34,102 bases of DNA, taken from the NCBI GenBank assembly GCA_020052955.1, contig JAGVOB010000097.1, positions 1-34,102 of the forward strand. The letters run 5' to 3'. The notes under the pieces were generated by a model. It saw only the letters and a program-made list of their open reading frames with translations. It ran no database searches and was not told where the DNA came from. The position numbers and the translations under genes were made by a program. This document shows, one piece after another, positions 1 to 34,102 of the stretch. This stretch comes from Candidatus Omnitrophota bacterium (GTDB taxonomy: Bacteria > Omnitrophota > Gorgyraeia > VGKN01). Each line of letters begins with the position of its first letter. Within the stretch, counting starts at the first letter, position 1.

Positions 1-2254
1 GCACGTCTATGGTATTGGCACCGAATTTTATAGCGTTACTAAATTCAGAGATTGACGATTTGTATTCGCCTTTATCGCGGTAGACCCTTCCCAGTTCTAA
101 ATAGACATCGGGGTTAACAGAACCGGATTCTATCGCCATTTTGAGTTCGGATATAGCTGAGTTATATTTTTTCTGTTTTCTATGCAGCTTTGCCATCTCT
201 AGGATAACAGTTTCCTCGTTTGGATAGCGAATCAAAAGAAAATTTAACTCTTTTAGGGCAAAATCGGTATTACCTTTACAGATATAACGCTTGACTATCG
301 CCAAACTTGTGGATAGGTCGTCAAAGTCATGTACCTTGGCATTTTTAAGCTCTTCTATGCCAAAATCATATTCCTTTTTTTTGGGATAAGCCATTGCCAA
401 GTCATATTTCTTTGAACATCCGCGAACTTCTGCAATTTTCATTTTAACAAGCTCGTTTTCTGGATAACGTTTTAACATTAAATTTAATTTTTTCAAGGCC
501 AAACCAAAATCACCTTTTTCACAATAGCACAGGGCCATCTCTAAATTAACGCTCAAATTATCAAAACCATATTCAAGCGCCTTATTAAACTCTTCAATAG
601 CCAACTCATACTTTGTCAATATCTTATAATTTATTCCTAAATCATAATGTATCTCCCCATTTTTAGGGTCTTTTATAAGAACTTCTTTAAATGTTTCGGC
701 GGCCAAAGCATATTCCTTCTTTAACGCATAGGTCCTTCCTAGTAAAATTTTAGCCTCAATGTGGTCTGGATTATGAATTAAGAAATTTTTTAGTTTTTCT
801 AGAACAATAAGATATTCTTCCTGTGCATAGGATGTTTTAATCCAATCAAAATTAAGTTCCTTCTTTATAGGAAAATGGAAGCAAAAATCACTATAATTCT
901 TCGCCAAAACCTTCTTACGATAAAACTGCATCTTATCAGAATTCCAAATCTCTTCTAAAGATGAATTATTTATATTTCCTACGACTTCTTGGCATTCACA
1001 AGAAGGCCTTATACCGCCTGTCCTATCTATGAATAAGTGCTGCCATGGTAAGTAGCAATACTTATTCTTTCTTAATTCAGGGCATTTATAAATTTCTAAA
1101 TCAGGATTTTCTCCTTCTCTCTTCGCTGAAATATCTGCATTAACCACAGTTTGGTTTCCAGTATCTTTTGAAATCTTCATCAAAAGTTCTATCTCATGCT
1201 CCTTTGCTTTCTTTTCAACCACTTCTATTGCCTTATTAATATACTTACTAAATTTCATACCTTCATGAATGAAAACATTCTGCGGATCAATAGTTCCATC
1301 TATAGGATATATTTGAAGAAAATCAAAATTATACCGCTTAGCAAAATCTACCGTGTCTTCTAATTCATGGTGGTTAGATTTCATAACAATAAAACTCATC
1401 GTTGTAGTCATTCTACCGCTGAAATTCTCATTCGAATTATTTCCTTTGATTACCTTGTAATTATTAACTAGTCCAATGCTTCTAATTAAATCTTCAAACC
1501 TCGCTCCTCTTCTAATTTTTTCATAAGTATCTTTAGTAACCCCATCTATAGCAAAAGAAATATTGATATTTTTTCCGGCTAGCATTTTTGCCCATTTCTC
1601 ATCAATCAAAAGTCCATTTGTGTTTATATTCTGACTTAAATGTGGATAGGTAGCGGCTTTTTTAAAAAGTTTAGCAAAATATTCTGAGAGAAATACCTCT
1701 CCTCCTTGCCAGTATAATTGTTCTAAATATGGAAGATATTCTTTAATCTCTTCAACAATATTTTTAGGAAGGTCCCAGGATTCTTTCCAGACTTCACACA
1801 TTACACATCTCAAGTTACATTTGGTAGTTAAAGTAACCCAAAGGCCTGTAGGTTTGGATTTGAGGATTGTTTTTCCTTGGGTAATCTCTATCTCATTAAG
1901 AATTTTATTACTAAAGAAAATCTCGTCTCTGGTTGGCATAACTTTATAGGCTTGTTTAAATGCTTCAATGGATTGTTCAAATTCTCCCTTTTTTCGATAT
2001 GCTCTGCCCAATTCAAGATAGATATCAACATCATTTGTACCAAGAAAAATCGCTTGCCTTAATTGGTTTATGGCTGAACTAAAATCACCTTTATTTAAAT
2101 ATGCAAAACCTAGGTCTTTATAGACGTCTTTACCATCATAACCTTTTTTAATCGCCTCTTTAAATTCTTCTATTGCCATGTTATATTTTTTTTGTTCTAA
2201 AAAAACTTTGCCTTTTTCTAGATGTTCATTGGAAATAACATTATCAGTAGGCAA
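1..2254 (-). CDS. TPR - radical SAM/SPASM-like (family A) - TPR protein, 3'-truncated by the left window edge
   Basis: Manual reverse translation. Probable TTG start at 2254 (EL PTDNVISNEHLEKGKVFLEQKKYNMAIEEFKEAIKKGYDGKDVYKDLGFAYLNKGDF...), then KCNLRCVMCEVWKESWDLPKNIVEEIKEYLPYLEQLYWQGGEVFLSEYF, FAIDGVTKDTYEKIRRGARFEDLIRSI, CYLPWQHLFIDRTGGIRPSCECQEVVGNI...EIWNSDKMQFYRKK. More TPR-like helices follow (HIEAKILLGRTYALKKEYA...). The frame stays open to position 2, so the ORF track, which needs a stop, omitted it. Confidence 0.85.
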   Translation of the reverse strand, partial: MPTDNVISNEHLEKGKVFLEQKKYNMAIEEFKEAIKKGYDGKDVYKDLGFAYLNKGDFSSAINQLRQAIFLGTNDVDIYLELGRAYRKKGEFEQSIEAFKQAYKVMPTRDEIFFSNKILNEIEITQGKTILKSKPTGLWVTLTTKCNLRCVMCEVWKESWDLPKNIVEEIKEYLPYLEQLYWQGGEVFLSEYFAKLFKKAATYPHLSQNINTNGLLIDEKWAKMLAGKNINISFAIDGVTKDTYEKIRRGARFEDLIRSIGLVNNYKVIKGNNSNENFSGRMTTTMSFIVMKSNHHELEDTVDFAKRYNFDFLQIYPIDGTIDPQNVFIHEGMKFSKYINKAIEVVEKKAKEHEIELLMKISKDTGNQTVVNADISAKREGENPDLEIYKCPELRKNKYCYLPWQHLFIDRTGGIRPSCECQEVVGNINNSSLEEIWNSDKMQFYRKKVLAKNYSDFCFHFPIKKELNFDWIKTSYAQEEYLIVLEKLKNFLIHNPDHIEAKILLGRTYALKKEYALAAETFKEVLIKDPKNGEIHYDLGINYKILTKYELAIEEFNKALEYGFDNLSVNLEMALCYCEKGDFGLALKKLNLMLKRYPENELVKMKIAEVRGCSKKYDLAMAYPKKKEYDFGIEELKNAKVHDFDDLSTSLAIVKRYICKGNTDFALKELNFLLIRYPNEETVILEMAKLHRKQKKYNSAISELKMAIESGSVNPDVYLELGRVYRDKGEYKSSISEFSNAIKFGANTIDV

Positions 2255-2354: not shown

Positions 2355-3510
2355 TTATATTTTCAAAGATACATCTCGAACATCAGAAGGAATTAATCCA
2401 GAAAAGCAATTAGGGTTACATAAATCAAGTAAATCGTTATTCACAATCTTCTTTCGAAAAAACTGCATCTTTTCTCCATTCCAAATCTCAGTCAAACCTT
2501 CCTCAAGAACATTTCCAATCTTTTTTGATTCCTTAGAGCAATCCCCTTGGATACAATGACAGTGAGGATAAACATCCCCTCCCCACTCAATAACCATCTG
2601 TTGCCATGGTGCACAACAAGCTAGTGTGTTCTTTTTCTGATCTTCAACTTTCTTAGTATCTATTTCCCTACGAGGACTGTCTTGATTTGAACAACAAACT
2701 GCAGAAAGCCATTCTATTAGCTTAATACCAAACTCGTTAGCTTCTTTTTTCATTTCCTGTATAACACAACTACTATATTGCAATATTGCATTATCAGCAT
2801 TAAAGAAAATATTCTCTTTGTTATCAAAATTACCATTGACGGGCTGTAAAAGGACTCGCTCGAGTTTATATCTTTTGGCAAATTTTATAACCTTTTCTAA
2901 CTCCTGATAGTTAGACCTCATTATTACTACTTGCATTCCGGTAGTAGATAAATCAGAATAATTATTTCTCTTATACTTTTCCTTAATATGCATTTAAGGT
3001 TTCTATGCTTCTAATTAAATCTTCAAATCTTGCTCCTCTTCTAATGTGTTCATAGGTTTTCTTGGTAACGCCATCTATGGAGAAGATGATGTCAGCATTG
3101 CACCTGGCTAACTTTTCAGCCCATTTTTTATCAATAAGAAGCCCATTGGTTACTATAGTCTGTTTTAAATTTGGGTAAAATGCTGCTTTCTCGAATAGTT
3201 CCCCGAAATAATCTAATAGAAAAACTTCGCCACCTTGCCAACTTATACGCTTCAGAAATGGGAAAAGGCGTATAATTTCTGTAATTATATTTTGAGATAC
3301 ATCCCAAGTGTTTTCCGCGACTCTGCACATTATACACCTAAGGTTACACTTGCTAGAAAGAGTAACTCCAAGATACATTGGCTTAGATTCAAGAATTATA
3401 TTCTTCTGAGAAATTTCAAGCTCATTTAGCATTTTATTTCTAAAGAATATTGCATCTTTATCTGAGCTTTTTCCAATTACTTTCCTAGATTCCCCCAAGC
3501 GAGAGTTCAT
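2355..3510 (-). pseudogene. Family A radical SAM/SPASM gene split by an apparent frameshift into 2983..3510 (rSAM half) and 2355..2993 (SPASM half)
   Basis: 2983..3510 has SSKCNLRCIMC, ISWQGGEVFLLDYF and SIDGVTKKTYEHIRRGARFEDLIRS, and stops at LNAY*. 2355..2993 continues with MQVVIMRSNYQELEKVIKFAKRY, CCAPWQQMVIEWGGDVYPHCHCIQ, GNVLEEGLTEIWNGEKMQFFRKK and CNPNC. The two halves align to consecutive parts of intact paralogues such as 6195..7295. Confidence 0.75.
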
Positions 3511-3599: not shown

Positions 3600-4658
3600 T
3601 TAGTTTAAACCGCGTAATTCCTTTGATATAATACCTTTGATACAATTTGGATTACATAAATCTTCATAATCGCTGGCTACAATCTTCTTGCGATACATCT
3701 GCATTTTTTCATTATTCCAGATTTCATTTAGGCTTTCACCTAACACATTACCAACCATTTCTCTGCAATGACATGCGGGACATACATTACCAGCGGGGTT
3801 AATAACAAGTCTCTTCCATGGCATGTGGCAAAGTAGGCGATTGCCGGACAGTTTCTTTCCGTTTTTCTCTCCAATTTCATTATCCTCGTTATAATTACCA
3901 GAAAAGGGTAAGGAATTTAATAGATTCAACCCATATTCTTTTGCCTTTGCCTCTGCATGTTCAATGTGTTCTTTAATATAACTGAGGGCCGCAGAATCCT
4001 TGTGATAAAAAATATTCTCTTTGCTATCGGTATTCCCCCAAATAGGCATTAAATGAAGTGCATCGAAATGATATTCTTTGGCAAAATCAATAAATTTCTC
4101 CAGCTGAAGATAGTTGGAATCCATTATGACTGTATGCATCCTAAAAGACATGCCACTGGTTAAATCAAGCCGTTTTCTCAGGGTATTTATCAACTTAACA
4201 TTATTTATCAGTTTTTTAAATTCGGCTCCTTTTCTTATAGATTCATAAAGCTCCGTTGTTACTGCATCAATAGAAAAAGTTAGTTCCGCATTATTCCTGA
4301 CAAGTTTCTCCGCCAGTCTTTCGGTAAGCGGCAATCCATTTGTAATTATCGATTGGTGCAGACTTGGAAACTTATTCGCTTTTTCCACTAAATCCTCAAA
4401 ATAATTTAACAAGAGGACTTCGCCTCCCTGCCAAATTATTTCTTCGAGATATGGAAAAAGCTGAATAATTTCTTTAAGGATATTCTTCGGTATATCCCAC
4501 GGAATCGATTTTTCTTCGCACATTATACAAAAGATATTGCATCGTGTTGTCAGCGTAACGACGAGACTGGTTACCCGTGACTCTAACATTATATTTTTCT
4601 GCCGTATCTCTGTTTTATTTAATATTTTATTCTGAGAAAAAAGCTCTTTTCCCTGCAT
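3600..4658 (-). CDS. Radical SAM/SPASM-like protein, family A, no TPR block
   Basis: 352 aa; TTRCNIFCIMCEEKSIPWDIP, LFPYLEEIIWQGGEVLLLNYF, SIDAVTTELYESIRKGAEFKKLI, LLCHMPWKRLVINPAGNVCPACHC, GNVLGESLNEIWNNEKMQMYRKK, DLCNPNCIKG. Confidence 0.9.
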   Translation of the reverse strand: MQGKELFSQNKILNKTEIRQKNIMLESRVTSLVVTLTTRCNIFCIMCEEKSIPWDIPKNILKEIIQLFPYLEEIIWQGGEVLLLNYFEDLVEKANKFPSLHQSIITNGLPLTERLAEKLVRNNAELTFSIDAVTTELYESIRKGAEFKKLINNVKLINTLRKRLDLTSGMSFRMHTVIMDSNYLQLEKFIDFAKEYHFDALHLMPIWGNTDSKENIFYHKDSAALSYIKEHIEHAEAKAKEYGLNLLNSLPFSGNYNEDNEIGEKNGKKLSGNRLLCHMPWKRLVINPAGNVCPACHCREMVGNVLGESLNEIWNNEKMQMYRKKIVASDYEDLCNPNCIKGIISKELRGLN

Positions 4659-4662
4659 ATTT

Positions 4663-6198
4663 TTATAAAAATTTTAAATACCTCTCCGACACCCAACCTT
4701 CTATACATTCAGAATTACAAATTTCACTGCAATGATTATTAACAATTTTTTTACGATAGTCTTGCATTTTATTATTATTCCAGACCTCCTCTAATGAATC
4801 CTCGACTGCATGGCCAATACTTTCCTGTGGTTTACACACGCAATCCGGCCGTATAGTGCCATCATAATCAATATATAATTGAATCCACGGCAAATGGCAC
4901 ATCATCTTACTTTCGGTTTGCACCATATCTTTATTAAAACCGAGATTTTCGGCATACGGTCCTTTTTTTTCAATAGGAATCGGCAGGCGATTCTCTAAAA
5001 GAATGCCATACCTTTCTGCTTTTTCCTTTATCTTTGGAAGGACTCCCGCTATATATTCAAATGCCCGTTTATCGTTAAGATAAAAGATGTTCTCGGGGTT
5101 ATCATGATTGCCTCCTATCGGCAGCAAAGCAAGCAGTCTAAAGCCATACTCCTTGGCAAAATCTATAAAATCCTCTAATTGATGATAATTTGACCTCATA
5201 ATCACCGCATGAAGATTGGTATTAATTAAAGTGGGTTGCATATTTTTTAACTCATTAAATCTTTTCAAATTTTTTATTAAAATTTTAAATTGGGCTCCTT
5301 TTCTAATTCTTTCGTATATATCCGCAGTTACTCCGTCAATAGAAAACGCAAGGTCGACATTGCTCTTAATTAATTTATCTGCCCACTGTTCATTTATCAA
5401 TAAACCATTTGTTGTAATAACCTGTTTTAAATTAGCAAATTTGCCTGCGAGAGCCATTAAATCGCTGAAATAATCCAGTACAAATACCTCTCCTCCCTGC
5501 CATACTACCCGCTCAAGATAGGGAAAATAAGATATAATTTCCTTGACCATTTTCTCTGGAATTTCCCACCTTAGCCTTATTTCTTCGCACATAGTACATC
5601 TTAAATTACACTTTGTTGAGAGAGTAACTATTAAATTTCTTAATTTCGAATTTAAAATAAGTTTTTTTTGCGCTATCTCAAGTTCGCTTAATAGCTTATT
5701 TTGAGAGAATATATCATCCTTAGAAATAAGACTATATACTTTTTCTATTTCGTCGCTTGCCTTGGCATAATGACCGGTAAAATTATAATCCCTGATTTTT
5801 CTTATATACTCCGGATAGATATCGGCTAATTCTTTATTTACTTCATCCTTATAAGATGTGTCCTCAAGAATATGTTTAAGTTCCCACAATGCCAGGTCAG
5901 CTTTTTTTAAAATTTTATATACCTTTGCCAGCAAAAGATGATGATGCTTGGGTATAGAGCCGTGATATAAACATCCGGCTGTTTTTAACATATTTAAAGC
6001 TTCCTCGTAATTATCTTGAATATAATACAGTTTCCCGAGCTCAAAATAAGCTTCTCCATTATTTTGGTCGGTCGAAATAACCTTTTTGAATTTTTCTATT
6101 GCCAAATCATATTGTTTATTATAAGCATATTCTTTCCCGGCTGCCATTAAAGCAGCTTCATTAAAAACGGATTTATCGGACTTGTAACTATTGTTCAT
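4663..6198 (-). CDS. TPR - radical SAM/SPASM-like protein, family A
   Basis: 511 aa; N-terminal TPRs (YDLAIEKFKKVISTDQNNGEAYFELGKLYYIQDNYEEALNMLKTAG), STKCNLRCTMCEEIRLRWEIP, YFPYLERVVWQGGEVFVLDYF, MMCHLPWIQLYIDYDGTIRPDCVCKP, EICNSECIEG. Confidence 0.92.
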   Translation of the reverse strand: MNNSYKSDKSVFNEAALMAAGKEYAYNKQYDLAIEKFKKVISTDQNNGEAYFELGKLYYIQDNYEEALNMLKTAGCLYHGSIPKHHHLLLAKVYKILKKADLALWELKHILEDTSYKDEVNKELADIYPEYIRKIRDYNFTGHYAKASDEIEKVYSLISKDDIFSQNKLLSELEIAQKKLILNSKLRNLIVTLSTKCNLRCTMCEEIRLRWEIPEKMVKEIISYFPYLERVVWQGGEVFVLDYFSDLMALAGKFANLKQVITTNGLLINEQWADKLIKSNVDLAFSIDGVTADIYERIRKGAQFKILIKNLKRFNELKNMQPTLINTNLHAVIMRSNYHQLEDFIDFAKEYGFRLLALLPIGGNHDNPENIFYLNDKRAFEYIAGVLPKIKEKAERYGILLENRLPIPIEKKGPYAENLGFNKDMVQTESKMMCHLPWIQLYIDYDGTIRPDCVCKPQESIGHAVEDSLEEVWNNNKMQDYRKKIVNNHCSEICNSECIEGWVSERYLKFL

Positions 6199-7295
6199 AG
6201 TTTTAAAGGAACTTCTCTTGCGTCGGCAGAAATTAAACCTTTAATACAATCGGGGTTGCAGAGATTAGAAAAATCATTACCCGAGATTTTTTTTCTAAAA
6301 AGGCGCATTCTATCTCCATTCCAAATTTCAGCTAGGCTTTCTTTAAGAACGCTTCCTATTAACTTTAGCTCATTAGGGCCGTCCTGGATACAAAGACAAT
6401 GCGGATAGACATTCCCTCCCCATTCAATAAACATTTGTTGCCAGGGCGCATAGCATAACAGTTCCTCTCCTTTATGGAAAATATCATTCCCGATATTTAT
6501 TTCTTTTTTGGCAGAATCATTCTTTGAACTAAAGGGTATGGGGAGCAGTTCTACTAGTTTAATTTTAAAATCTTTCGCTTCTTTTCTTATCATCTGCCTG
6601 ACATTATCAAGATAATTCAGTATCCTTTCGTCATTATCGAAAAAAATATTTTCACCCTTGTCAAAATTACCTTTAACTGGCTGCAGGATAACCCTGTCAA
6701 ATTTGTATTTTTTTGCAAACCTCATAATCCCCCTTATCTCACGATAATTAGATTTCATAGTTGTAACAATCAATACCAATGTCAATGGGTTAGCGTTCTT
6801 CCCGCTTCTTATTTCGTTTAGAAGGTTAAGCGTCCTGATCAAGTCTTCGAATTTACTACCTTTTCTTATATGTTCATATGTCTCCTTCGTAATACCGTCT
6901 ATAGAAATATTTAAGGTTAGGTTGATCTTGTCGAATATATCAAGCCACTGATTATTTATAAGGTGCCCGTTTGTTGTTATCTCGTGCGATAAGTTTCTAC
7001 ATTCGCTTGCCTCTTCCAGTAGTTCTCTAAAATAATCCAACAGAAAGACTTCCCCTCCCTGCCATACAATCTCTTGCAGGTATGGAAAAAATGAGACTAT
7101 CTCACTTATCGTCTTTTGGGGTATCTGCCAAGAGATTTTTTTTACCTCGCACATAAGACAGGACAAATTACAATTTGTGGTTAATACGGCGTTAAGCCTT
7201 ATAGGTCTGGAAGAAAGGCCTGCCTTTTTATCCTGAATCTCTTTGCGGTTTAACTGTATATTCTCTTTAAAAATCTTGTCTGTATCGGTTACCAT
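6195..7295 (-). CDS. Radical SAM/SPASM-like protein, family A, no TPR block
   Basis: 366 aa; TTNCNLSCLMCEVKKISWQIP, FFPYLQEIVWQGGEVFLLDYF, SIDGITKETYEHIRKGSKFEDLI, LLCYAPWQQMFIEWGGNVYPHCLC, EIWNGDRMRLFRKK, NLCNPDCIKG. ATGA overlap with the next gene (6195-6198). Confidence 0.92.
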   Translation of the reverse strand: MVTDTDKIFKENIQLNRKEIQDKKAGLSSRPIRLNAVLTTNCNLSCLMCEVKKISWQIPQKTISEIVSFFPYLQEIVWQGGEVFLLDYFRELLEEASECRNLSHEITTNGHLINNQWLDIFDKINLTLNISIDGITKETYEHIRKGSKFEDLIRTLNLLNEIRSGKNANPLTLVLIVTTMKSNYREIRGIMRFAKKYKFDRVILQPVKGNFDKGENIFFDNDERILNYLDNVRQMIRKEAKDFKIKLVELLPIPFSSKNDSAKKEINIGNDIFHKGEELLCYAPWQQMFIEWGGNVYPHCLCIQDGPNELKLIGSVLKESLAEIWNGDRMRLFRKKISGNDFSNLCNPDCIKGLISADAREVPLKL

Positions 7296-7302
7296 AACGT
7301 TC

Positions 7303-8886
7303 CTATCGGTTAAACTTTAGATATCTTTCCGGTATGTTCCCTGCGATACAATCCGGGCTACATATATCCTTATGGGAATTATCAAGCAATTTTCTTCTAT
7401 AAAATTGCATACCTTCATTATTCCAGATATCTTTTATTGAAGCCTTCTTTACATTAGCTATCCCGTCATCAGGTGGCCATACACACATACAATCGGGGTA
7501 AACATTTCCATCCCAGCTTATATAAAGACGCTGCCAAGGAGCATAACACATTATCTTTTTGCAACCGTCTTGCCCCATGCAGACATTTTTATTATTTGCA
7601 TCCAAAGCGGAAGAATTGGGAGGAACCGGAATTCTGTTATCCAAAGCAATTTTATATTCCCTCGCTTTTTCTATCAAACTACAATTTATCGCTGCCATAT
7701 AATTAAGTGCATCATCATCCCGATTATAAAATATATTTTCCTCGCTATCAAAATTTCCCTGAACAGGTCTGAAAAGTACGGAACTAAACCCATATTCTCT
7801 GGCAAATTCAATGAAATCCAACAGCTGATGATAATTAGACTTCATAATAGTAACATTAAGATGTAAATGCAAATCAGAGTTATGCTGTTTCCTCTTGGAA
7901 TTTATAACGTTAATAGTGCTTATAAGTTTTTCAAAGCTTGCCCCTTTTCTAATGTTTTCGTAGCTATCCTTGGTTACCCCGTCTACGGAGATAGCAAGAA
8001 CTACTGACGGCTGAATAACCAATTTTTCTATTAAATCCTCAGAAAGAAGCATACCATTTGTTACAATAAGTTGTTTTATATTGGGATAACGTTTGGTCTC
8101 TTCCAAAATATCGCTAAAATAGTCTACCAGAAAAACCTCTCCACCCTGCCACATGATATACTCAAGGTATGGGAAAAAAGCCATAATTTCCTCTGCGGTC
8201 TTTCTCGGCATTTCCCATTTATATCTACGTGCTTCACAGGCAGAACAAGACAAATTGCATCTATTTGTAAGCGTAATAGTAAAACTTCTAACCTTTGACG
8301 AAAGAATTGTCTTTCCCTGTGCCATCTCAAGCTCGTTCAACAATAAATTTCTAAGAAAGACATCCTCTTTTGGTACTTCCTTCAAGCTGTCCGCCACTCT
8401 TTTCTCTATAGATTCGCATCTTCCTGTGAGCCGATATAGTTGAATCAGTTTCAGCAAAGCATCCTTTCTGTATCCGATATCTAATGAAAGTTCATATTCT
8501 CCTATGGCATCGTTATATTTATTAAACATTTCATAAATCCGCCCTAATTCAAAATGGGCGTCATCACTATTTTTAGCCTTTAACTCAATGGCTTTTTTAT
8601 ATTCTTTTTCCGCTAATTCGTATTGACCTCTTAAGTTATAGATATTCCCCATTAAAGTCAGAATCGTACCGTTAAGAGGATCGAGCTTAAGAGCAATCCT
8701 GATATTCTCTAACGCTAAATCATATTGCATCTTTTCCTGGTAAACAAGACCTAGCAAAATATGGGCCTCTGCATTTTGCGGTTCAAAAGACAAAACGGTC
8801 TCCAGTTCTTTTATTGCCATATTATATTCGCGTTTTTCTTTATGGATCTTGCTAATCAATATTTTTTGATGCACAAAAGTCTGCAT
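7303..8886 (-). CDS. TPR - radical SAM/SPASM-like protein, family A
   Basis: 527 aa; TPRs (YNMAIKELETVLSFEPQNAEAHILLGLVYQEKMQYDLALENIRIALKLDPLNGTIL), TNRCNLSCSACEARRYKWEMP, FFPYLEYIMWQGGEVFLVDYF, IMCYAPWQRLYISWDGNVYPDCMC, DICSPDCIAG. Confidence 0.92.
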   Translation of the reverse strand: MQTFVHQKILISKIHKEKREYNMAIKELETVLSFEPQNAEAHILLGLVYQEKMQYDLALENIRIALKLDPLNGTILTLMGNIYNLRGQYELAEKEYKKAIELKAKNSDDAHFELGRIYEMFNKYNDAIGEYELSLDIGYRKDALLKLIQLYRLTGRCESIEKRVADSLKEVPKEDVFLRNLLLNELEMAQGKTILSSKVRSFTITLTNRCNLSCSACEARRYKWEMPRKTAEEIMAFFPYLEYIMWQGGEVFLVDYFSDILEETKRYPNIKQLIVTNGMLLSEDLIEKLVIQPSVVLAISVDGVTKDSYENIRKGASFEKLISTINVINSKRKQHNSDLHLHLNVTIMKSNYHQLLDFIEFAREYGFSSVLFRPVQGNFDSEENIFYNRDDDALNYMAAINCSLIEKAREYKIALDNRIPVPPNSSALDANNKNVCMGQDGCKKIMCYAPWQRLYISWDGNVYPDCMCVWPPDDGIANVKKASIKDIWNNEGMQFYRRKLLDNSHKDICSPDCIAGNIPERYLKFNR

Positions 8887-21835: not shown

Positions 21836-22680
21836 GTATCTATGCTCCGCATTAAATCTCCCTCTTCAAAAATTTTATCTTCATCACAGGGACATATCTC
21901 TAAATTACAAGGTCTGTCTTCCGGTAAAAGCTCAAAGTTACCATCAAAAAAATTTCCAATTATACCATTATAAAACAGCTGTCCGCAGCGCGCTACAGCC
22001 CCATCGGGAAGCAATTCAGCGGTTTTCCTCCCAGCTTGACAAATTTTTCCCTTCTTTCTAATCTTATTGAACCAGTCTGGATCTATGGCCATAATCTCTA
22101 TTTCTTCTTCTGAATAACTCCAGGGATAGGCATTGCCCTTATATATGCCCCTGAAAGGTATCACCTTAAGCCTCTCTTTTATTTTATCAAATTCCTGCAT
22201 ATAAAATTCGATATTGCGTATATATGGGGGATAGGCCAAAAGATTCGTACATCCTTTAAAGCCGTTGTCCCTCAAAAACCTGGCTTTTTCCAAAAAACTA
22301 TTCAGAGTATCAAAATCGGGATGAAAGCTAACAGTGATCGAAACTTTTTCTGAATTAACTAACCTTACAAATTTCTTCAAATCACCTGAGGCATTCGTTG
22401 TAATATTAACCGGATAATGCATGCCGGATAAATCTCTCACTATCTCTATGAAATTAGGATACGTAAAAGGCTCTCCCCCCGTTATCAAAATAGCAAAACG
22501 TCCATATCTTCTATAAAGCCTCTTCCAGTGATTATTCCACTCATTCAAAGAAGCGTACTTATTGCGCTCTTTCAGTATATCCCATCCGCATCCTTCATAA
22601 TAAAAACAATACGGGCATCTATAATTACAATGATAATGGGTAAGCCATGTAAAGCGACTATTTATAACATTTTTTATCAT
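21832..22680 (-). CDS. Radical SAM protein, family B
   Basis: 282 aa; HYHCNYRCPYCFYYEGCGWDI, ILITGGEPFTYPNFIEIVRDLS, VSFHPDF, GKICQAGRKTAELLPDGAVARCGQ, EICPCDED. ATGA overlap with 18905..21835. Confidence 0.9.
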   Translation of the reverse strand: MIKNVINSRFTWLTHYHCNYRCPYCFYYEGCGWDILKERNKYASLNEWNNHWKRLYRRYGRFAILITGGEPFTYPNFIEIVRDLSGMHYPVNITTNASGDLKKFVRLVNSEKVSITVSFHPDFDTLNSFLEKARFLRDNGFKGCTNLLAYPPYIRNIEFYMQEFDKIKERLKVIPFRGIYKGNAYPWSYSEEEIEIMAIDPDWFNKIRKKGKICQAGRKTAELLPDGAVARCGQLFYNGIIGNFFDGNFELLPEDRPCNLEICPCDEDKIFEEGDLMRSIDT

Positions 22681-25600: not shown

Positions 25601-26285
25601 TCAATATGCACCCCCTGCTGGCCATAAAAGGGACATGACGCGAGTCATCATAATCTCCTAGCGGCAAACCGCTGAAATCCAAAAATGGAAGGTTGTCTAA
25701 ATCCGGCATTAATTCTCTAGGCTCATTAACTATAGTTCTATCTCCATTTTTAAAGACAATGCCCTTGCAAGACGAGATATCCTTTTTGTTTTCAAGATAT
25801 TGGAGCAATTCGCAGAACATAACTTCGCCTTCACCTTTTACGGTGATATCTATGCTTGGCTCATCCAATACTGATACAGCGAATTTTTCGTCAAAAAAGA
25901 GGGGGCCTCCGAAAATAATGATAATTTTATCGTTACTTTGTTTAATCCTTTTTGAAATTTCAATGCTGGCCAGACGCGAAGAAGCATTTAGTGAGAACCC
26001 CACAACCTGAACTCCGCTATCTATTATATCTTTGATATACCCGTCTATGATTTTGCTGTTATCTTCGAAAAATTTCCTAACGCATTCTGGGTCATACCAG
26101 AATTGACTTTGCTCCCAGGCCCACATATCTTTATAATTCTCAGTTCGTCTCAAATACAGTTTAATGTTCATATCCAATACAAAAAGCTCATGCCCCTCAC
26201 TCTTTAAACAAGCGGAAAGCTGAGCTATGGATAGGGGAGGATCATATGTACCCCATGCCGGGGCTTGAATAAGGGTAACTTTCAT
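22692..26285 (-). CDS. Tri-modular radical SAM protein: B12-binding-like/class B rSAM + TPR-like spacer + family B rSAM + SPASM-type rSAM
   Basis: 1197 aa. N-terminal B12-binding-like fold (MKVTLIQAPAWGTYDPPLSIAQLSACLKSEGHELFVLDMN ... VVGFSLNASS ... IIIFGGPLFF) followed by ASRGCILNCAFCSSRSFWKGYR and FMFGFPGETEEDF; spacer (WFNLGHYYEYSGDFKKALDCFLRYCEID); HYDCNYSCPYCFFEGKW ... ITGGEPFIYPNF ... CPCDEDK; GPCNSNCVFCSREAEYEMF ... TGSGEFLQL ... SLHASNAALHKRL ... CREAWSQIMFDMQGHVLPCDASEDC ... EIWNGRYYQNLRR. Confidence 0.92.
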   Translation of the reverse strand: MKVTLIQAPAWGTYDPPLSIAQLSACLKSEGHELFVLDMNIKLYLRRTENYKDMWAWEQSQFWYDPECVRKFFEDNSKIIDGYIKDIIDSGVQVVGFSLNASSRLASIEISKRIKQSNDKIIIIFGGPLFFDEKFAVSVLDEPSIDITVKGEGEVMFCELLQYLENKKDISSCKGIVFKNGDRTIVNEPRELMPDLDNLPFLDFSGLPLGDYDDSRHVPFMASRGCILNCAFCSSRSFWKGYRAMSGKRIFEEIQFHINQQRKINSHFSHIDFVDLLFNGSMKSLVEFCECLIKAKLNIAWTANMIIRQDMTFDIIEKMKEAGCEHVLFGIESGSPNVLRLMKKNFKISDADRIVKELHEAKIIVTCNFMFGFPGETEEDFQMTLNFIKRNSAYLDRVYPSRTFCAIEEFSYLAGHLDEFNINPDAPNHLYWTSKDGSSTYPERLRRCEEFCSLASSLGIEVGCGVQTSVELDRWFNLGHYYEYSGDFKKALDCFLRYCEIDKENETISNKIKYCSDKLKSNGSLVDFELKKKVKDPDEISRGESYPTHRVSKKEDIQRRFTWNIHYDCNYSCPYCFFEGKWDEYKNRNIYLSVSEWMIYWNRIYERYGRCYILITGGEPFIYPNFIELIEKLFQKHYPINISTNASGNLTAFLNKIDPERVSLSVSFQPYFDKIDLFLDKVRLIRKNRFKGCINFVAYPPVIKDIEHYIERFSSIGEGLKIIPFCGMYKGKEYPFAYTDEEKRAIGVDNNWFNKTRKKGSVCPSGFDSALVFPDGKVSRCGQIGEKMIIGNFFDRNFSLLDEKLPCDAEFCPCDEDKLFGEEEPAKVIFENQNNNMAIIPANGNGNNSLLNDKEYSEGKIILESSPKSIFIQVAGPCNSNCVFCSREAEYEMFSLDKHRKRFEKNLYPFIAKSETLFLTGSGEFLQLAGAGDILDFFDTNFPDVEKCFSTNGSSLIPRICEKIVNSRSRYTIHISLHASNAALHKRLTHTENFHKILGQINYLLKLRNGKENLKINLIFVATALNVENLSNFVRLAASMGVDRVICYYNYIYNYEQKFLSCFFKQEITNSKLEEAASLANHLKIRITLPPKFEQQVYPSLGPCREAWSQIMFDMQGHVLPCDASEDCNEILSDNRNFMEIWNGRYYQNLRRSLLEQCNSCFNHCFRANPSSINDFESHVIRRGEKERLEKILTIDS

Positions 26286-26310: not shown

Positions 26311-28983
26311 TTAAATCGTCGGATATTGTAACGTTGATGCGGTATCCAGATTAATCATGCCTAACTGTCTACAGTTAATACAGATATTACCAGTTTTATT
26401 ATTATAAATTCTCTTATTTGCTATATATTTCCTTGCAGTATGGTATTTTTCATTATTCCAAATATCCTTAAACGGCTGCTCTAATATGTTTCCAAAGTCA
26501 TCTTTCTCGTCCTCAACGGAACAGCAGGCTGAAATAGAGCCGTTTGAATTAACGGTTAACGCCTCCCAGGGCCAATTACAAAAAATTTCCTTGGATGGCT
26601 TAAAATATTCTGATGTAAATTCGTTTTCTATCACTGTCTTTTTGTAATTACTATACTCTTCATTTAAAGGGATCCACTCTTTATTTCCTATAAAAGCCTT
26701 CGTGATACCTACTGCATCCACGCCAATAGCCTTGCCCAATTCTTTAACGTTTTCTATCTCATGCTCATTATGCCTAAATACCAAAAATTGCCACGTTATA
26801 TGGGGGTTTTTCTTGCCAAGCTTTCTTTTTTTATCAATTAACATCTTTAGATTGTTAATAGCCTTACTGAAATCCCCTCCAACTCTATATTTAGAATACG
26901 TTTCTGGACTTGCTCCGTCAATCGAAACTATAAGCCTATCCAGCCCCGAAAGAACCAATCTTTCGGCATCTTCCTCACAAAACTCGTTTAAATTCGTATC
27001 AATCTTTGTATCCGCATTAAATTTCTTTGCATAAGTAATCATATCAAACAATTCTTTATTCAAAAAAGGTTCTCCCCAATTACAAAAATCTATATGAATA
27101 AGATAGCGCCCCAATTCATCCATTATCTTTTTGAAATCCTTAAAGGATAAAACCCTTTGTGGGCGCGAATTCCTTTGTTGGCCGGTTGGACAAAAGGGGC
27201 ATCTTAGATTACATATATTGGCAGGGTCTACGGTTAGCCAGTACGGGTAACCAAATACAGAACTGTTCCTTTTGTCAAGTTGGACGTTTATTATCATATA
27301 ATTAAGCAGCTTTTCCCAAAACCTTCTTTTAGACAGATTATCAATCATAAATTTCTGTAACTCGCCAAACTCATAATCAAATTTCGTACATAAGGATTCA
27401 TAAATATTTTCTGCTTCAGGGACGGATATTTTGTTTGAATACTCTAATTCTTTTACTGAGTTAATGGTTTTCTCTAGCGCCCCTATATTAAGGGGCAGAA
27501 ATTCGGTTGACAGGCAGGCCTTATGATAATCTTTTTTATAATTATAATAATCGTTCAGTAATACCCATTTGTCCGGTTTGTGCCTTAAAACTCCCGATGC
27601 CTCGGGAAGGCCTAAAGACAGGGCAAGGTAGCAAAACTCTTCATACCGCCTGAATCTCTCCGGATAGGTATTGACATTGTTGGCCTCCCAAAACAAAGAA
27701 TTATCTATATGTTTTATCTCGAACTCGCTGGAATTGCAGTAGAGATACGTTCCCTTGTCAATAACACAAAAAGACTGGCTAGCTAACACAGAATCCATAT
27801 TTTCTCTATTTCTTGTTAAAAACTTTAATGTTTCCTGAAAATCATCTTCAGTTTCAGATGGTATACCAAACATAAAATTTGCCTGTATCTCTATTCCCGC
27901 TTCACGCGTGTCCTTTAATACCCTCTCGGCATCGCTTATCTTAAAACGCTTGTTCATGCTGTTTATAACTCTCTGTGAACCGCTCTCTATGCCGTAACCA
28001 AGCCAGGTACAGCCGGCTCGTTTCATTTTTCCCAATAACTCTTTTGTCATCTCCGGACGTATTACAGCCTGACCTGCCCATTTTATTTTTATATTGTTCT
28101 CTATTATTAAATCACAGAACCTGGATATTGCCTTTATATCCCCGTTTAAAAGCGACCCTATAAAATAGAAATAATAAACTTTTGGGAAATTAGTAACCTG
28201 ATGCAGGATTTCTGCGAACATTCGCTCTCCGCTCATCGAGCGGAATTTCTTCCAATATTGCCACTCACTGCAAAAATGACATCTCATAAAACAGCCTCTG
28301 CTATCAAAAATCTCAAGGCGATGAGGCTCTCTATAAAGGCCTGCTTCAATATCTTCTTTAAAGTCGGAATAATCCGGGAATGGCAAGGCATCCAGATATC
28401 TCACAACCTCTCTCTCTCCGCAATCGATAATATCTCCGTTTTTACGCACGAGAAGCCCTTTGCAGGAATCCAGTTCTTTCTTAGAGTCTAATATTTTCAC
28501 TATCTCAAGTATCGTAAAATCTCCCTCGCCCAATGCTACAGCATCTATAAATTCATTTCTTGCTATATCAAAACCTCTTAATTCTCTCGAGCAGTATGGC
28601 CCCCCAAAGATTATAATCCTGTTTTTATCGAGTTCTTTTATTCTCCTGGCAACCTCTAGGCTGATTAGAAAGGAGCTAAAATGAACGGTAAAACCTATAA
28701 TCTTTGCATCTGTCTCTAAAATTTTGTTTATTTGTCCAGAAATAATTTCTTCATTTACCTTAACAAAGTCTGATATTGATTCCGTATCTGTCCAAAAAGA
28801 ATAGAAATCCTTATCATCCCACATCTTCCTGTATTCCATAGGACTTAAATGATATAGCTTGTTGTTTATATCAAAACAAAAAGCAGTATGGCCATCGCTC
28901 CTAAGCAAAGCGGAAAGCAGGGCCATGGCGTAGGGGGGGCAATCCCTTCCCCATGCGGGACACTGGACAAAAGCAACTTTCAT
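26311..28983 (-). CDS. B12-binding-like/class B radical SAM fused to a radical SAM/SPASM domain
   Basis: 890 aa; MKVAFVQCPAWGRDCPPYAMALLSALLRSDGHTAFCFDIN ... IIIFGGPYCS ... DSRGCFMRCHFCSEWQYWKKFRSMSGERMF ... FMFGIPSETEDDF; then ANICNLRCPFCPTGQQRNSRPQRVLSFKDFKKIM ... DFCNWGEPFLNKELF ... VSIDGASPETYSKYRVGGDFSKAINNL ... CNWPWEALTVNSNGSISACCSVEDEKDDFGNILEQPFKDIWNNEK. Confidence 0.92.
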   Translation of the reverse strand: MKVAFVQCPAWGRDCPPYAMALLSALLRSDGHTAFCFDINNKLYHLSPMEYRKMWDDKDFYSFWTDTESISDFVKVNEEIISGQINKILETDAKIIGFTVHFSSFLISLEVARRIKELDKNRIIIFGGPYCSRELRGFDIARNEFIDAVALGEGDFTILEIVKILDSKKELDSCKGLLVRKNGDIIDCGEREVVRYLDALPFPDYSDFKEDIEAGLYREPHRLEIFDSRGCFMRCHFCSEWQYWKKFRSMSGERMFAEILHQVTNFPKVYYFYFIGSLLNGDIKAISRFCDLIIENNIKIKWAGQAVIRPEMTKELLGKMKRAGCTWLGYGIESGSQRVINSMNKRFKISDAERVLKDTREAGIEIQANFMFGIPSETEDDFQETLKFLTRNRENMDSVLASQSFCVIDKGTYLYCNSSEFEIKHIDNSLFWEANNVNTYPERFRRYEEFCYLALSLGLPEASGVLRHKPDKWVLLNDYYNYKKDYHKACLSTEFLPLNIGALEKTINSVKELEYSNKISVPEAENIYESLCTKFDYEFGELQKFMIDNLSKRRFWEKLLNYMIINVQLDKRNSSVFGYPYWLTVDPANICNLRCPFCPTGQQRNSRPQRVLSFKDFKKIMDELGRYLIHIDFCNWGEPFLNKELFDMITYAKKFNADTKIDTNLNEFCEEDAERLVLSGLDRLIVSIDGASPETYSKYRVGGDFSKAINNLKMLIDKKRKLGKKNPHITWQFLVFRHNEHEIENVKELGKAIGVDAVGITKAFIGNKEWIPLNEEYSNYKKTVIENEFTSEYFKPSKEIFCNWPWEALTVNSNGSISACCSVEDEKDDFGNILEQPFKDIWNNEKYHTARKYIANKRIYNNKTGNICINCRQLGMINLDTASTLQYPTI

Positions 28984-29030: not shown

Positions 29031-32000
29031 TTATCTTTCTAATATATGGCCGCTACCGTAATACTTCAGATCTTCCAAAGAAATTCCATAGCGCTTCAGA
29101 GAAATCATATTAACGTGTGAGCGTATATTGTTTACATTTCCTGCATTTAGCTTATAGCAGTTCTTACAGGTACCGTTTGAATCTTTATCAAGTTGCGAAC
29201 GCCGTAAATATTGATACGCGGGTCCGTTCCAAATTTCTTCAAAATCTTTTTGATTTAAATACCCTATATGCCCTTCCGCAAAACAACACGGCAAAACAGA
29301 GCCCTGAGTCTCAACATAGAAATATTTCCACGGATCCGAACAAATATTTTTTCCGTTCCCTTTAGACTTCCCGTTAAACTTCGGGGGAATCTGCAATCGT
29401 AGCTTATGCTTCTTTGCAATATCTTCTGCCTCCATAATCATCTCATTAACTCTAGTTTGTTTATAAAAACATGAGAGCTCAAAATGATTGGGTTTATATA
29501 TAGTCATATAGTTACAGATTACTTCATCAACGCCTAGTTTTACCGCAAATCTTACAAAATTCGGCAAATCATTGATATTTATCGAATTCATAACGAAAAT
29601 CAAGCTTATCCCGGGCATAGTATTATCCGGCCTTATAGATACTAAATTTTCTATATTCTTGACAACCTTATCAAATACATCCATGCCAGTTAATAATTTA
29701 TGCAAACTTCCGTTTGAGGCATGCAATGAGAATTGTATATTATATCTGCTTTTTGATAACCTCTCTGAAACAACGACGTTTAAGGGGATGCCGTTCGTAG
29801 TAACAATTTTGTTAACATACGACAATGATTTGTTCAAATAATCCAAAAAAATCAGAATATCCGGCATTAAAAGCAACTCGCCATAGCCGCATAAATTCAA
29901 AGCCCTAGCATAAGGCAAAACTTTACCCAGCTTCTTTTCAAAAAACTTTTGATAGATATTTAGATCAAAATGAGGGTAATTCCCATCAAGGCAGAATATG
30001 CACTTAGCATTGCATTCATAATGGGCTCCGATACCTATTATCTGAGGTCCTGAGTTTAAGATAATCTTTTTTTGGATAAATTCTGTCTCATTGGCATCTA
30101 TATTGGCCTGCTGTATCTTGTTATTATCCAAACTATCTTTTGTGTCTTTACTAATAAGAATGGTGGGCCATTCTTCCTTTTTAAATATCTCATCTATCAC
30201 GGGAAAGACTATGCAGACAAGCCAGCAATGGCATTTCGCTTCTTTAATAGCATCTCTTGTAAACCTTGCCTCTTTTGACATCCAAAGCTGATCAAAATTC
30301 TTTTTGCGTATATTTCCTATTGTTTTTTCCTTTAAAATAGGGCAAAAAGAAAGGTTCCCGAAGGGATCAAGCATTGCAAACCTAGAGCCGGCGATACACT
30401 TTTTAAAATATCTCCTTTGATTTTTTTGATATTGAATTATATTTGACCAGAAATACAGCTTTGAAAAAAGACCATCACCGCAATATCCCTCTTTAGCATT
30501 ATGCAGTATCTTTTCGATATCCTGTTCTTTTGTAATCTCGCCTAAAATAGCATACACACCTTTTTCAGCCTTTTTAAAATGGTTCTTTCCCCATATAATC
30601 TTCTTTCTTGCCTTTTTAGGAATAGCAAACTGTGCAAAAAAGTTTATACCATTGCCATCGGCAAATTTCTTTGCCTGAATCATTTGTCCTGCATTATACG
30701 GGGTAAGGGTAAAAGTTAACGAAAGATCAACTCTTGGCAATTCTTCTTTGCATCTGGCAATAGTCTCCTTTAAAGAAGAAAATGCCTTTTTTCTCCCTCT
30801 GATTCTATCGTGAGTTTTTTCTATGCCATCCAGCGAACTGCCCAGAGATATTGACTTAGGATTGCATTTTTCTATAATTTGTTTTGTCTTTTTTATAATC
30901 TCTCCGGTATTTAAACCATTTGTCAATATGCCTATGGAAGCTTGCGGCAAATGTTTAACTATAACATTGCATATATCGACAATATCTTTTCTTAAGAACG
31001 GTTCTCCTCCGGATAATACAACATTATTAACTCTTTTTAGGTAAGAAGAGTTTTCTAATAGATTTTCGATCTCTTCAACGGTAAGCTCTTTGGTTAAATC
31101 AGCTGTTCTTTTCTCATAATCCCATATATCGCACATAATACATCTACTATTACAATTATAGGTCAGCTCAATATGAAGTTCTTCAGGGCCTTCTTCAGGG
31201 CCCTGCAACTCAACTATCTTCAGCCGTTCATCTACAATTTTATTAACCTCTTCAGAGATTTTACCTAAGGACAGATTTCTCACGGTATAATGCCTTGATG
31301 GATTTGATATAATATTCAAATATAGCTCGTCTAATTTATTCGCTATATCTTTCCAGTCATATTTGTACTCTATCAACCTTCGTGCATTTTGTGCAAGCCT
31401 AAGGGATAGTTCATCATCATTTATAACATTTATTACCTTATCGGCAAATTCTTTGGGGTTATTAGCGATTAATATTTCCCTGTCAACTTTGGCGTCAATG
31501 CCCATTGCTCCATTTTGGGTAGCGACAACGGGCACCCCGCAGGCCATAGCTTCTAAAACCTTACCTTTTATCCCAGCGCTTTTTCGAATCGGGCTGACAA
31601 AAACTCTGGCATCTCTTAGGTAAGGGCGAACGTCGTCAACTGTTCCTATAATCCTGATTCCCTCGTTCCCGGATAAGGATTTAACTGCTTCGGTTGGTTC
31701 GGAACCGACAATTAAGAATTCGGCATCTTGGACTTTTTGCCTTATAAGCGGAAATATTTCTTTAACAAAGTAAATAACCGCATCTTCATTTGGGTAATGC
31801 TTATAATGCCCTATAAAAATTATCTTTTTTGATCCCCCTTTGGTATGGTTGAAAGAGAAGAAATCCACATCCACAGCGGTCTGTATCAGTTTGAAGTTAA
31901 TATCCGGATATAGACTTGTTAATAATCCGCGGTCTTGTCTGGACAGGACGATAACATTATGCAACTTCGTATACGCGTTTTTGTGAAAAGCAATTCGTTT

Positions 32001-34102
32001 TAAATATTCAAACAGATTACCCGATAGATCATAATTGTCATATTTATAATAGGATTTATCAAAAGATAAAATACTAATGTCATGTTCGGTATAAACAACA
32101 GGCGCAACCCCAATAGAATCTAGTAGATACAGCAATTCGTTCGACTCTATCTGGATAATATCAAGAGGCAAGGCTTCCTGAATCTCTTTAAACCTCTCTA
32201 TCAAATCTCTGCTATATGCATATTTATAGGTAGTTGGAAACAACGCATCCGGCAAGCTGGGTCTATATTTATAAACCGTAAATACCTCTTTAAAGACTTC
32301 TTTTAATTTCGGTATATAATCAAATTCCATCCTGTTATGTGCCAGTGTTAATAAATAGATATTATATTTATGCTTAAGGAGTTTTGCTAAATTATAAATT
32401 CTGATACTCCCTCCCCGGTTAAGGGGATAAGGCATAAACAAGCTTACAATTAGTATGTTTTTTTTGTCGCTACCTTCGGAATGTCTAAATCCATTTTTTC
32501 TAAAATTTTCGTAATAATTCATGCAATGATTAAATACCGTTTTATCATCGCGTACAATATATCTTCTCTCGTTAAACCTATGTGATAGGATAACTGGCAG
32601 CAGATTTAACGCCCAGAGAAATCCCTTCAGGAAAGAAAAACCACTTTTTTGTAAATTTTCAGGCAACAGATTAAAATGTCTTTTCAATAAGTCCCAATCA
32701 GTTATGTTTTTCCAAGTAAACGATATTTCGTTCTTTATCTCCTTGTGCCTTTCGTATGTTAAAGTGGCTTTGCCTTTGTGATACATAATACTATTCGGCT
32801 CATATATAACTTTAAGACCTCTCTTCCATGCCCTGTAAGAGATATCTATATCTTCCCAGCAATTTGGCTTATAGATTTCATCAAAACCTCCAAGCCATAT
32901 AAAATCTTTCTTTCTGAAAACCATAGCGCCACCTATGGCAAACATTGTAGGAGAAGATATATATATCTTTTCGCCTTCCGGCGTATCCGCTTCATTCCAT
33001 AAACTTATATAGCCATTTTTAAAATAGCCTATATGCATTCCCCAAAGAAAAGTTTTCCTATCCCAGCCATATAGCTTGGGTGTTACGGCAAATACATTTT
33101 CATCTTTAAAATAGTTTTTTACGGGTCCCAGAAAGCCATCCGTTACAATGATATCGTTATTGATTAACACGATAAGCTCATTTTGCGCTTCTTTAATTCC
33201 TCTATTGCAGGTAAAACCAAAACCCATATTTCGTTTGTTCCGGATTATCCTAACATGAGGAAAATTTTCTTTGACATACTCGAATGTCCCATCGGTGCTT
33301 CCATCATCTACAACTAAAACCTCATCTTCTCCTTCTCTGAATTCTTTTATAGCCATGATTGAATTCAGGCATTCTTTCAGTAAGCTTAACCCCTGCCAAC
33401 TGGGAATAACGACACTTACTTTTAAATTATCAAATTGCACAACCTCCCTGTTTGAAACCTTATTTTTCAAAAATGGCCTTAAAACCCTCCAAAGAAAACC
33501 TTCAAGTATAAATACAATGCCTATAAAAAAAAATATCAAAGTGAAGCTTATAATTGCCAAAAACAAAATACATTTAGAAATTACTTTTTTTATCATCTTC
33601 GCCTTAATTTTAAGCTGCCACAAAACTGTCCATAAGGGCCTTAATAAATATTTAAAACCTTCGGAATTATATATCCCGCCAAGTTCTTTGATTTTGCTAT
33701 CAAGTTCGCATTTAACATTACTTAATTCTTCCAATTTCTCCTTGATAAAAATGTTTTTAGCTGTAAGATTATTATTTAGATTTATAATTTCTTCCTTATG
33801 TGCTTCAAGTTGCCGGTCCTTTTCTATTAGATGGGCATCCTTTAATAAAACTTCATCAATTCTTTGTTTAAGCTGGTTGGATAAATTTATGATCTCTTTC
33901 TTATGTGTTTCAAGTTGCCGGTCCTTTTGGGCGATTTGAGAGTCTTTTGCCTTAATATCGTCAATGCTCTCCTTTAGCTGCTCGAAAAGGCTGGTGAGCT
34001 CCTCTCTCAAATAGCCTGCCTCCTGGTCTCTCTCTATAAGCTGGCCGTCCTTTATCAAAAGTTCGTCTGTTTTTTCCTCAAGCTGGTTGGATAAATTTAT
34101 GA
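29031..34102 (-). CDS. Coiled-coil - transmembrane - GT2 glycosyltransferase - GT4 glycosyltransferase - radical SAM/SPASM - radical SAM/SPASM protein, 5'-truncated by the right window edge
   Basis: Heptad-like repeats (NLSNQLKQRIDEVLLKDAHLIEKDRQLEAHKEEII); TM (CILFLAIISFTLIFFFIGIVFILEGFLW); GT2 (VSVVIPSWQGLSLLKECLNSIM ... VVDDGSTDGTFEYV ... LINNDI ... GGFDEIYKPNCWEDIDISYRAWKRG); GT4 (ILIVSLFMPYPLNRGGSIRIYNLAKLL ... IIFIGHYKHYPNEDAVIYF ... AGIKGKVLEAMACGVPVVATQNG); rSAM1 (LTYNCNSRCIMCDIWDYEKR ... SGGEPFLRKDI ... CHCWLVC); rSAM2 (HYECNAKCIFCLDGNYPHFD ... CGYGELLLMPD ... SLHASNGSLHKLL ... SVLPCCFAEGHIG). The track's Met at 34058 is a TTG, and 14 further in-frame sense codons run to the edge (I N L S N Q L E E K T D E L), so the true start is upstream of the window. 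Confidence 0.92.
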   Translation of the reverse strand, partial: INLSNQLEEKTDELLIKDGQLIERDQEAGYLREELTSLFEQLKESIDDIKAKDSQIAQKDRQLETHKKEIINLSNQLKQRIDEVLLKDAHLIEKDRQLEAHKEEIINLNNNLTAKNIFIKEKLEELSNVKCELDSKIKELGGIYNSEGFKYLLRPLWTVLWQLKIKAKMIKKVISKCILFLAIISFTLIFFFIGIVFILEGFLWRVLRPFLKNKVSNREVVQFDNLKVSVVIPSWQGLSLLKECLNSIMAIKEFREGEDEVLVVDDGSTDGTFEYVKENFPHVRIIRNKRNMGFGFTCNRGIKEAQNELIVLINNDIIVTDGFLGPVKNYFKDENVFAVTPKLYGWDRKTFLWGMHIGYFKNGYISLWNEADTPEGEKIYISSPTMFAIGGAMVFRKKDFIWLGGFDEIYKPNCWEDIDISYRAWKRGLKVIYEPNSIMYHKGKATLTYERHKEIKNEISFTWKNITDWDLLKRHFNLLPENLQKSGFSFLKGFLWALNLLPVILSHRFNERRYIVRDDKTVFNHCMNYYENFRKNGFRHSEGSDKKNILIVSLFMPYPLNRGGSIRIYNLAKLLKHKYNIYLLTLAHNRMEFDYIPKLKEVFKEVFTVYKYRPSLPDALFPTTYKYAYSRDLIERFKEIQEALPLDIIQIESNELLYLLDSIGVAPVVYTEHDISILSFDKSYYKYDNYDLSGNLFEYLKRIAFHKNAYTKLHNVIVLSRQDRGLLTSLYPDINFKLIQTAVDVDFFSFNHTKGGSKKIIFIGHYKHYPNEDAVIYFVKEIFPLIRQKVQDAEFLIVGSEPTEAVKSLSGNEGIRIIGTVDDVRPYLRDARVFVSPIRKSAGIKGKVLEAMACGVPVVATQNGAMGIDAKVDREILIANNPKEFADKVINVINDDELSLRLAQNARRLIEYKYDWKDIANKLDELYLNIISNPSRHYTVRNLSLGKISEEVNKIVDERLKIVELQGPEEGPEELHIELTYNCNSRCIMCDIWDYEKRTADLTKELTVEEIENLLENSSYLKRVNNVVLSGGEPFLRKDIVDICNVIVKHLPQASIGILTNGLNTGEIIKKTKQIIEKCNPKSISLGSSLDGIEKTHDRIRGRKKAFSSLKETIARCKEELPRVDLSLTFTLTPYNAGQMIQAKKFADGNGINFFAQFAIPKKARKKIIWGKNHFKKAEKGVYAILGEITKEQDIEKILHNAKEGYCGDGLFSKLYFWSNIIQYQKNQRRYFKKCIAGSRFAMLDPFGNLSFCPILKEKTIGNIRKKNFDQLWMSKEARFTRDAIKEAKCHCWLVCIVFPVIDEIFKKEEWPTILISKDTKDSLDNNKIQQANIDANETEFIQKKIILNSGPQIIGIGAHYECNAKCIFCLDGNYPHFDLNIYQKFFEKKLGKVLPYARALNLCGYGELLLMPDILIFLDYLNKSLSYVNKIVTTNGIPLNVVVSERLSKSRYNIQFSLHASNGSLHKLLTGMDVFDKVVKNIENLVSIRPDNTMPGISLIFVMNSININDLPNFVRFAVKLGVDEVICNYMTIYKPNHFELSCFYKQTRVNEMIMEAEDIAKKHKLRLQIPPKFNGKSKGNGKNICSDPWKYFYVETQGSVLPCCFAEGHIGYLNQKDFEEIWNGPAYQYLRRSQLDKDSNGTCKNCYKLNAGNVNNIRSHVNMISLKRYGISLEDLKYYGSGHILER
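33795..34102 (-). repeat. 105-bp (35-aa, five-heptad) tandem repeats encoding the coiled coil, continuing past the right edge
   Basis: Exact 22-nt string agctggttggataaatttatga at 33871-33892 and 34081-34102 (spacing 210 = 2 x 105), with a diverged copy (agctgctcgaaaaggctggtga) starting at 33976. cttatgtg(c/t)ttcaagttgccggtcctttt starts at 33795 and 33900 (spacing 105). Protein units: NLSNQLEEKTDELLIKDGQLIERDQEAGYLREELT / SLFEQLKESIDDIKAKDSQIAQKDRQLETHKKEII / NLSNQLKQRIDEVLLKDAHLIEKDRQLEAHKEEII. Confidence 0.88.

Follow-up and report, generated by a model that had tools for sequence, protein, structure and literature searches.

The DNA analyzed here (the window) is a stretch of 34,102 nucleotides that makes up an entire contig, C217, of an Omnitrophota MAG of 2.38 Mb in 232 contigs. 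The minus strand carries all 20 long open reading frames (ORFs), with coding sequence making up 98.2% of the window; the intergenic gaps measure 172 bp or less and many of the gene junctions overlap, which agrees with the original prediction of a single-strand array with small or overlapping junctions. That prediction also proposed 19 radical SAM genes with about 25 domains. Counted per ORF, the window proteins contain exactly 25 CxxxCxxC triads (10 in A and C to K, four in L to O, three in P, one in Q, three in R and two each in S and T; Table 1), the same distribution among the genes as predicted, while shuffled window proteins averaged 0.25 and never exceeded 2. A Pfam search placed the genes in the radical SAM superfamily, as anticipated, with 25 stretches of PF04055, one per triad and with the triad inside each domain. 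Of these, 22 reach the cut-off by themselves, one does so together with its in-frame neighbours and the remaining two fall slightly short (27.6 bits against a cut-off of 29.5). The window holds 25 of the 108 PF04055 stretches in the whole 2.38 Mb genome.

The two ORFs B and C appear to be a single family A gene that a frameshift or a sequencing error has interrupted, although a true split is also possible: a TAA stop lies at the junction (2983-2993), the halves are in different frames and the distal half contains no triad. Because the two ORFs are taken as one gene, the window has 19 genes, the number predicted, and not 20. The genes fall into a few families. Family A (A, C/B and D to K) combines a radical SAM domain with a distal cysteine domain and, in some members, TPR; family B (L to Q and the middle of R) consists of units of about 280 aa with the motif CNYRCPYC; R and S have a B12-type radical SAM domain at the N-terminus and a radical SAM/SPASM-like domain at the C-terminus. 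A GGE motif is found in 20/20 units of families A and B, and each enzyme of the two families has at least four distal cysteines when the split gene is counted as one. PF13186 matches every intact family A gene as well as P, R, S and T. The distal cysteine cluster lies C-terminal to the radical SAM core, as defines SPASM/twitch enzymes. A complete SPASM domain is defined by a seven-cysteine motif and two auxiliary clusters; families A and B have mainly four to five conserved distal cysteines, a count of residues in the sequence and not of clusters, which puts them nearer to twitch, and the distal cysteines of family B form a single twitch-like set.

Table 1. Genes of the window, with their domains and the basis of each assignment
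Gene	Position	Strand	Features	Basis
A	2..2254	-	family A: TPR + radical SAM (CNLRCVMC) + distal Cys domain + TPR; truncated by contig end	Pfam TPR, PF04055, PF13186
B+C	2355..3510	-	apparently a single family A gene in two ORFs: radical SAM half 2983-3510, distal Cys half 2355-2993	
D	3600..4658	-	family A: radical SAM + distal Cys domain, without TPR	Pfam
E	4663..6198	-	family A: TPR + radical SAM + distal Cys domain	Pfam
F	6195..7295	-	family A, without TPR	Pfam
G	7303..8886	-	family A with TPR	Pfam
H	8893..9951	-	family A; Endomicrobia positional orthologue	Pfam, reciprocal best hits
I	10124..11692	-	family A with TPR; Endomicrobia positional orthologue	Pfam, reciprocal best hits
J	11695..13167	-	family A with TPR; model (pLDDT 88) with TPR helices + radical SAM + distal domain	Pfam, AlphaFold model
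K	13175..14926	-	family A with TPR; Endomicrobia orthologue 51-52% identical across the radical SAM unit	
L	15039..16340	-	TPR + family B radical SAM (CNYRCSYC)	
M	16333..17139	-	family B radical SAM; best-conserved position between phyla, 61-63% identity to Elusimicrobiota	
N	17136..17996	-	family B radical SAM	
O	18021..18875	-	family B radical SAM	
P	18905..21835	-	fusion of three family B radical SAM domains, P1-P2-P3; P2 and P3 are separate genes in Endomicrobia	
Q	21832..22680	-	family B radical SAM	
R	22692..26285	-	B12-type radical SAM + family B + radical SAM/SPASM-like; separate genes in Endomicrobia	
S	26311..28983	-	B12-type radical SAM + radical SAM/SPASM-like	
T	29031..34100	-	coiled coil + GT2 + GT4 + two radical SAM/SPASM-like domains; N-terminal GT2 + coil on C169 (L142:1-1278)	

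Because the window stops at a contig end on either side, the array extends beyond it. On the right, the last 50 bases are identical to the first 50 of contig C169 and the reading frame of T is continuous over the join; these 50 bases lie within coiled-coil repeats, and the join is backed by the reading frame and by synteny in relatives. C169 encodes the GT2 and coiled coil that complete T, a Wzt_C domain, an ABC ATPase (Wzt), an ABC-2 permease (Wzm) and a TPR protein that matches SGNH weakly; by way of this contig, the GT2 and coil, Wzt_C, Wzt and Wzm sit directly upstream of T. The locus had been described as pure, with no gene of any other class, and this part of the prediction is not supported. 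T itself also carries GT2 and GT4 domains, the genes past the contig end belong to glycan export, and the window occupies the central stretch of a larger locus in which GT2/GT4/GT9 enzymes adjoin the array and PMT-like (PMT_2) transferases and SGNH hydrolases recur on its flanks. On the left, the array probably continues on contig C93 (L011), which carries nine more ORFs from the window's families in a row: eight have a triad, and the ninth (4599-5849) is a TPR and SGNH protein. We propose this continuation from the sequence because the ends of C93 and of the window both lie within the TPR coding sequence of family A genes; a search for an exact overlap between the ends of C93 and C217 found none. 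If C93 joins the window, the array of this genome exceeds 47 kb. Elsewhere in the genome there are further clusters of B12-type radical SAM genes (C209, C157, C124, C69 and C34), and on contig C226 (L026) a reading frame that stays open for at least 3,921 aa includes a radical SAM stretch and a segment of more than 100 residues repeated near its end.

The association with export genes is conserved in relatives. ABC2_membrane, ABC_tran and Wzt_C domains beside glycosyltransferases, the composition of a Wzm/Wzt locus, are present on C169 and in at least eight other Omnitrophota (at least nine if split contigs are included). The order Wzm-Wzt-T continues into S on single contigs in four genomes (G112, on a contig of 1.26 Mb, G241, G158 and G049), and in five others (G164, G269, G302, G252 and G281) the Wzt contig continues into a T-type GT2 and coil. 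T is present in 13 of 384 Omnitrophota genomes and is followed by S on the same contig in 10 of the 13. Wzt_C occurs in 11 of the 13 T-bearing genomes vs 98 of the 371 others (Fisher p = 3e-5, uncorrected for kinship). The conserved order is Wzm - Wzt (+Wzt_C) - T (GT2-coiled coil-GT2-GT4-rSAM-rSAM) - S - R - family B - family A.

A search for syntenic arrays in other genomes found them in both Omnitrophota and Elusimicrobiota. In a profile scan of a genome collection with profile A2, which represents a subset of family A, the closest relatives came from the Omnitrophota MAG JAHISH01; the other strong matches were in Omnitrophota and Elusimicrobiota, with a few weak ones in other phyla (E no better than 4e-16). 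On one rumen Elusimicrobia contig the genes run O-N-M-L-K-I, the order of the window with J absent. We measured collinearity as reciprocal best hits of radical SAM units, compared with 20,000 permutations. The collinear fraction was 13/14, 12/13 and 14/15 in three Endomicrobia genomes and 11/12, 10/13, 9/10 and 8/8 in four Omnitrophota, and 0 of the 20,000 permutations equalled these values. Collinearity was weaker (7/9, p = 0.004) in G045, an Elusimicrobia genome with about 40 radical SAM units across 75 kb of one contig, and G048 has many of the array genes in an order that is not kept (permutation p = 0.32). Next to the array of G045, an ORF of 6,934 aa consists largely of N and was rejected as a gene. 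In a tree of family B, L, M, O, P2 and P3 each fall within starred groups that contain both phyla, and N joins the Elusimicrobiota N genes with a support of 90; the positions L, M, N, O, P2 and P3 therefore diverged from one another before the lineages parted or the locus was exchanged between them. In Endomicrobia, the domains fused in P, R, S and T of the window are encoded by separate genes. A comparison of two close Endomicrobia gave a pN of 0.05-0.17 and a pS of 0.47-0.78, so that change is mostly synonymous, and the ratios are rough because many dS values are near saturation. Carriage of the array by plasmids or phages was considered and rejected, since M had no match in the plasmid and phage collections searched. 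The original prediction had offered two views of the array, a dedicated system with divided labour and a locus that diversifies paralogues, and these data support both: L, M, N, O, P2, P3 and other genes are ordered across two phyla under mostly synonymous change, and family A varies from 1 to 28 copies per genome around a constant core of T-S-R and family B.

The flanks of the array in Endomicrobia have their own neighbours. An LptF/LptG-like gene pair lies just downstream in two genomes, identified by Pfam in G042 and by size and place in G041. Directly downstream of one Endomicrobia array (L069:11772-14783) LptF and LptG are followed by a gene of the Asp/Glu racemase family. The gene upstream of the T-type enzyme encodes a beta-helix protein by Pfam in G040 and G048, and a protein similar by eye in G042. 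Large proteins are encoded immediately upstream of the T-type gene at L078:7667-11560, L071:17382-20000 and L076:15366-17840; two of them have a NosD beta-helix by Pfam, and two have a GSSDID stretch that resembles, by eye, a nucleotidyltransferase motif.

Our best explanation, which we hold with modest confidence, is that the window covers the central section of a large surface-glycan locus whose radical SAM enzymes form a tailoring module. A surface glycan is the most likely product because the array adjoins Wzm/Wzt and glycosyltransferases and because this arrangement is kept in relatives. It suggests that a large set of radical enzymes decorates an exported sugar polymer, with substrates and chemistry that we infer as follows. 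The glycosyltransferases of T would build a lipid-linked polymer that Wzm/Wzt would export, Wzt_C reading the polymer to be exported. Each of the twitch/SPASM-type enzymes of families A and B may make one position-specific change on sugar residues, for which epimerisation, oxidation and deoxygenation are candidates, and the B12-type domains of S and R may C-methylate. The TPR arms could dock family A enzymes on a shared scaffold or on T. The decoration would vary by lineage, because family A enzymes differ in number between lineages around a fixed core. The absence of Wzt_C from four Endomicrobia genomes that retain the core counts against the glycan reading; the LptF/LptG-like pair is found in two of these four, and the upstream beta-helix protein belongs to the same group.

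The main rival, which we consider unlikely, is the modification of a peptide or protein: the enzymes would act at many positions on a protein that the TPR arms recruit, whether RiPP-like or a surface protein, for instance the Endomicrobia beta-helix protein. Those arms, present in many family A enzymes, could recruit a protein equally well, and a beta-helix repeat protein is encoded immediately upstream of the Endomicrobia T-type gene. Among solved radical SAM enzymes, the AlphaFold models of M (pLDDT 87) and J match both kinds, the peptide maturases SkfB, SuiB and anSME and the sugar or nucleotide enzymes BlsE, BtrN, SpeY, DesII and viperin. The models do not discriminate between sugar and peptide substrates; the resemblance of the SPASM/twitch folds to SkfB and SuiB favors the rival, and this split among the modelled folds counts against the glycan reading. 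A RiPP locus has a short precursor beside its maturase, but the gaps of the window are too small for a precursor of more than 35 aa and contain no ORF above that length, no window protein reaches an NCBIfam RiPP maturase cut-off, and the neighbours in Omnitrophota are glycan genes. We judge a second alternative to be quite unlikely, namely a pathway for a lipid or lipid-linked small molecule in which B12 enzymes of the HpnJ/BchE type act on the lipid and Wzm/Wzt or Lpt-type proteins move the product. The B12-type domains of S and R do match the HpnJ, BchE and TIGR03975 profiles (103-157 bits, all under cut-off), and LptF/LptG adjoin the array in Endomicrobiaceae; however, Wzt_C is a carbohydrate-binding export domain that adjoins the array together with GT2/GT4/GT9, and no lipid-synthesis gene recurs among the genes scanned. 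It is improbable that the array is mostly a reservoir of paralogues, with family A copies kept for recombination or antigenic variation instead of one step each. The wide range of family A copy number and the one split copy would fit such a reservoir, but family B and several family A copies hold their position and orthology across phyla, the metal ligands are kept in nearly all copies and pN is far below pS. Lastly, an assembly artefact or contaminant contig, which the fragmented MAG and the repeat-bearing coding sequence at both contig ends might suggest, has a negligible chance, as it is refuted by collinear arrays in independent assemblies (among them the 1.26 Mb contig) and by a tetranucleotide profile that resembles the rest of the genome.

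The tailoring of a surface glycan can be compared with several known systems. In loci for O-antigens and surface glycans that depend on an ABC transporter (E. coli O9a, WbdD), Wzm, Wzt and Wzt_C also lie beside a multidomain glycosyltransferase with a coiled coil. WbdD carries a kinase/methyltransferase cap, whereas T bears radical SAM domains and is followed by at least 20 more; we know of no Wzm/Wzt glycan locus with so many. The best NCBIfam match of the GT4 part of T is TIGR03087 (207 bits, under cut-off). That of family B is the STM4011 family (NF038073), with a cut-off of 200 bits that single domains do not reach (61-75) and that only the three domains of P pass when summed (204). The radical SAM/SPASM maturases TIGR04317 and TIGR04311 rank with the best NCBIfam matches both for family A and for the radical SAM/SPASM-like domains of S, R and T (58-120 bits against cut-offs of 380-400); no oxidoreductase partner was found in the neighbourhoods scanned. 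The carbohydrate-tailoring enzymes BtrN, SpeY, AprD4, DesII and BlsE are distant matches in sequence or fold. These act singly in antibiotic or nucleotide-sugar pathways and are not known from arrays of 20-40 enzymes. A defence role of the viperin type was rejected on profile scores: the weak profile and fold matches to prokaryotic viperins (pVip) reach 32-52 bits for single domains with PADLOC and 32-48 bits with NCBIfam, against a cut-off of 180, and the window domains are not members. In the titles and abstracts of the open-licence literature we found no published radical SAM arrays in Omnitrophota or Elusimicrobiota, and a search of open-licence papers on O-antigens and Wzm returned nothing relevant. 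One Elusimicrobia paper reportedly describes many radical SAM proteins near a nitrogenase paralogue, which may overlap with the array.

All the parts of the locus belong to known superfamilies and the export genes to a known type of locus; its scale, the conservation of its order across phyla and the fusion of glycosyltransferase to radical SAM domains are undescribed as far as we found in the open-licence literature. We put forward, tentatively and short of an even chance, that 15-40 radical SAM enzymes, including glycosyltransferase-radical SAM fusions, write a position-specific pattern of radical modifications on one exported surface polymer, in an undescribed system common to Omnitrophota and Elusimicrobiota. 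Radical SAM enzymes usually act singly or in small groups. We know of no dedicated radical-chemistry pathway that would match in size a conserved operon with about 25 to 40 domains that keeps its order between two phyla and is tied to a surface-glycan exporter. The array offers many enzyme families with distinct, testable reactions and, if our reading is true, would point to a cell-surface polymer as yet undescribed in these two, mostly uncultured, phyla.
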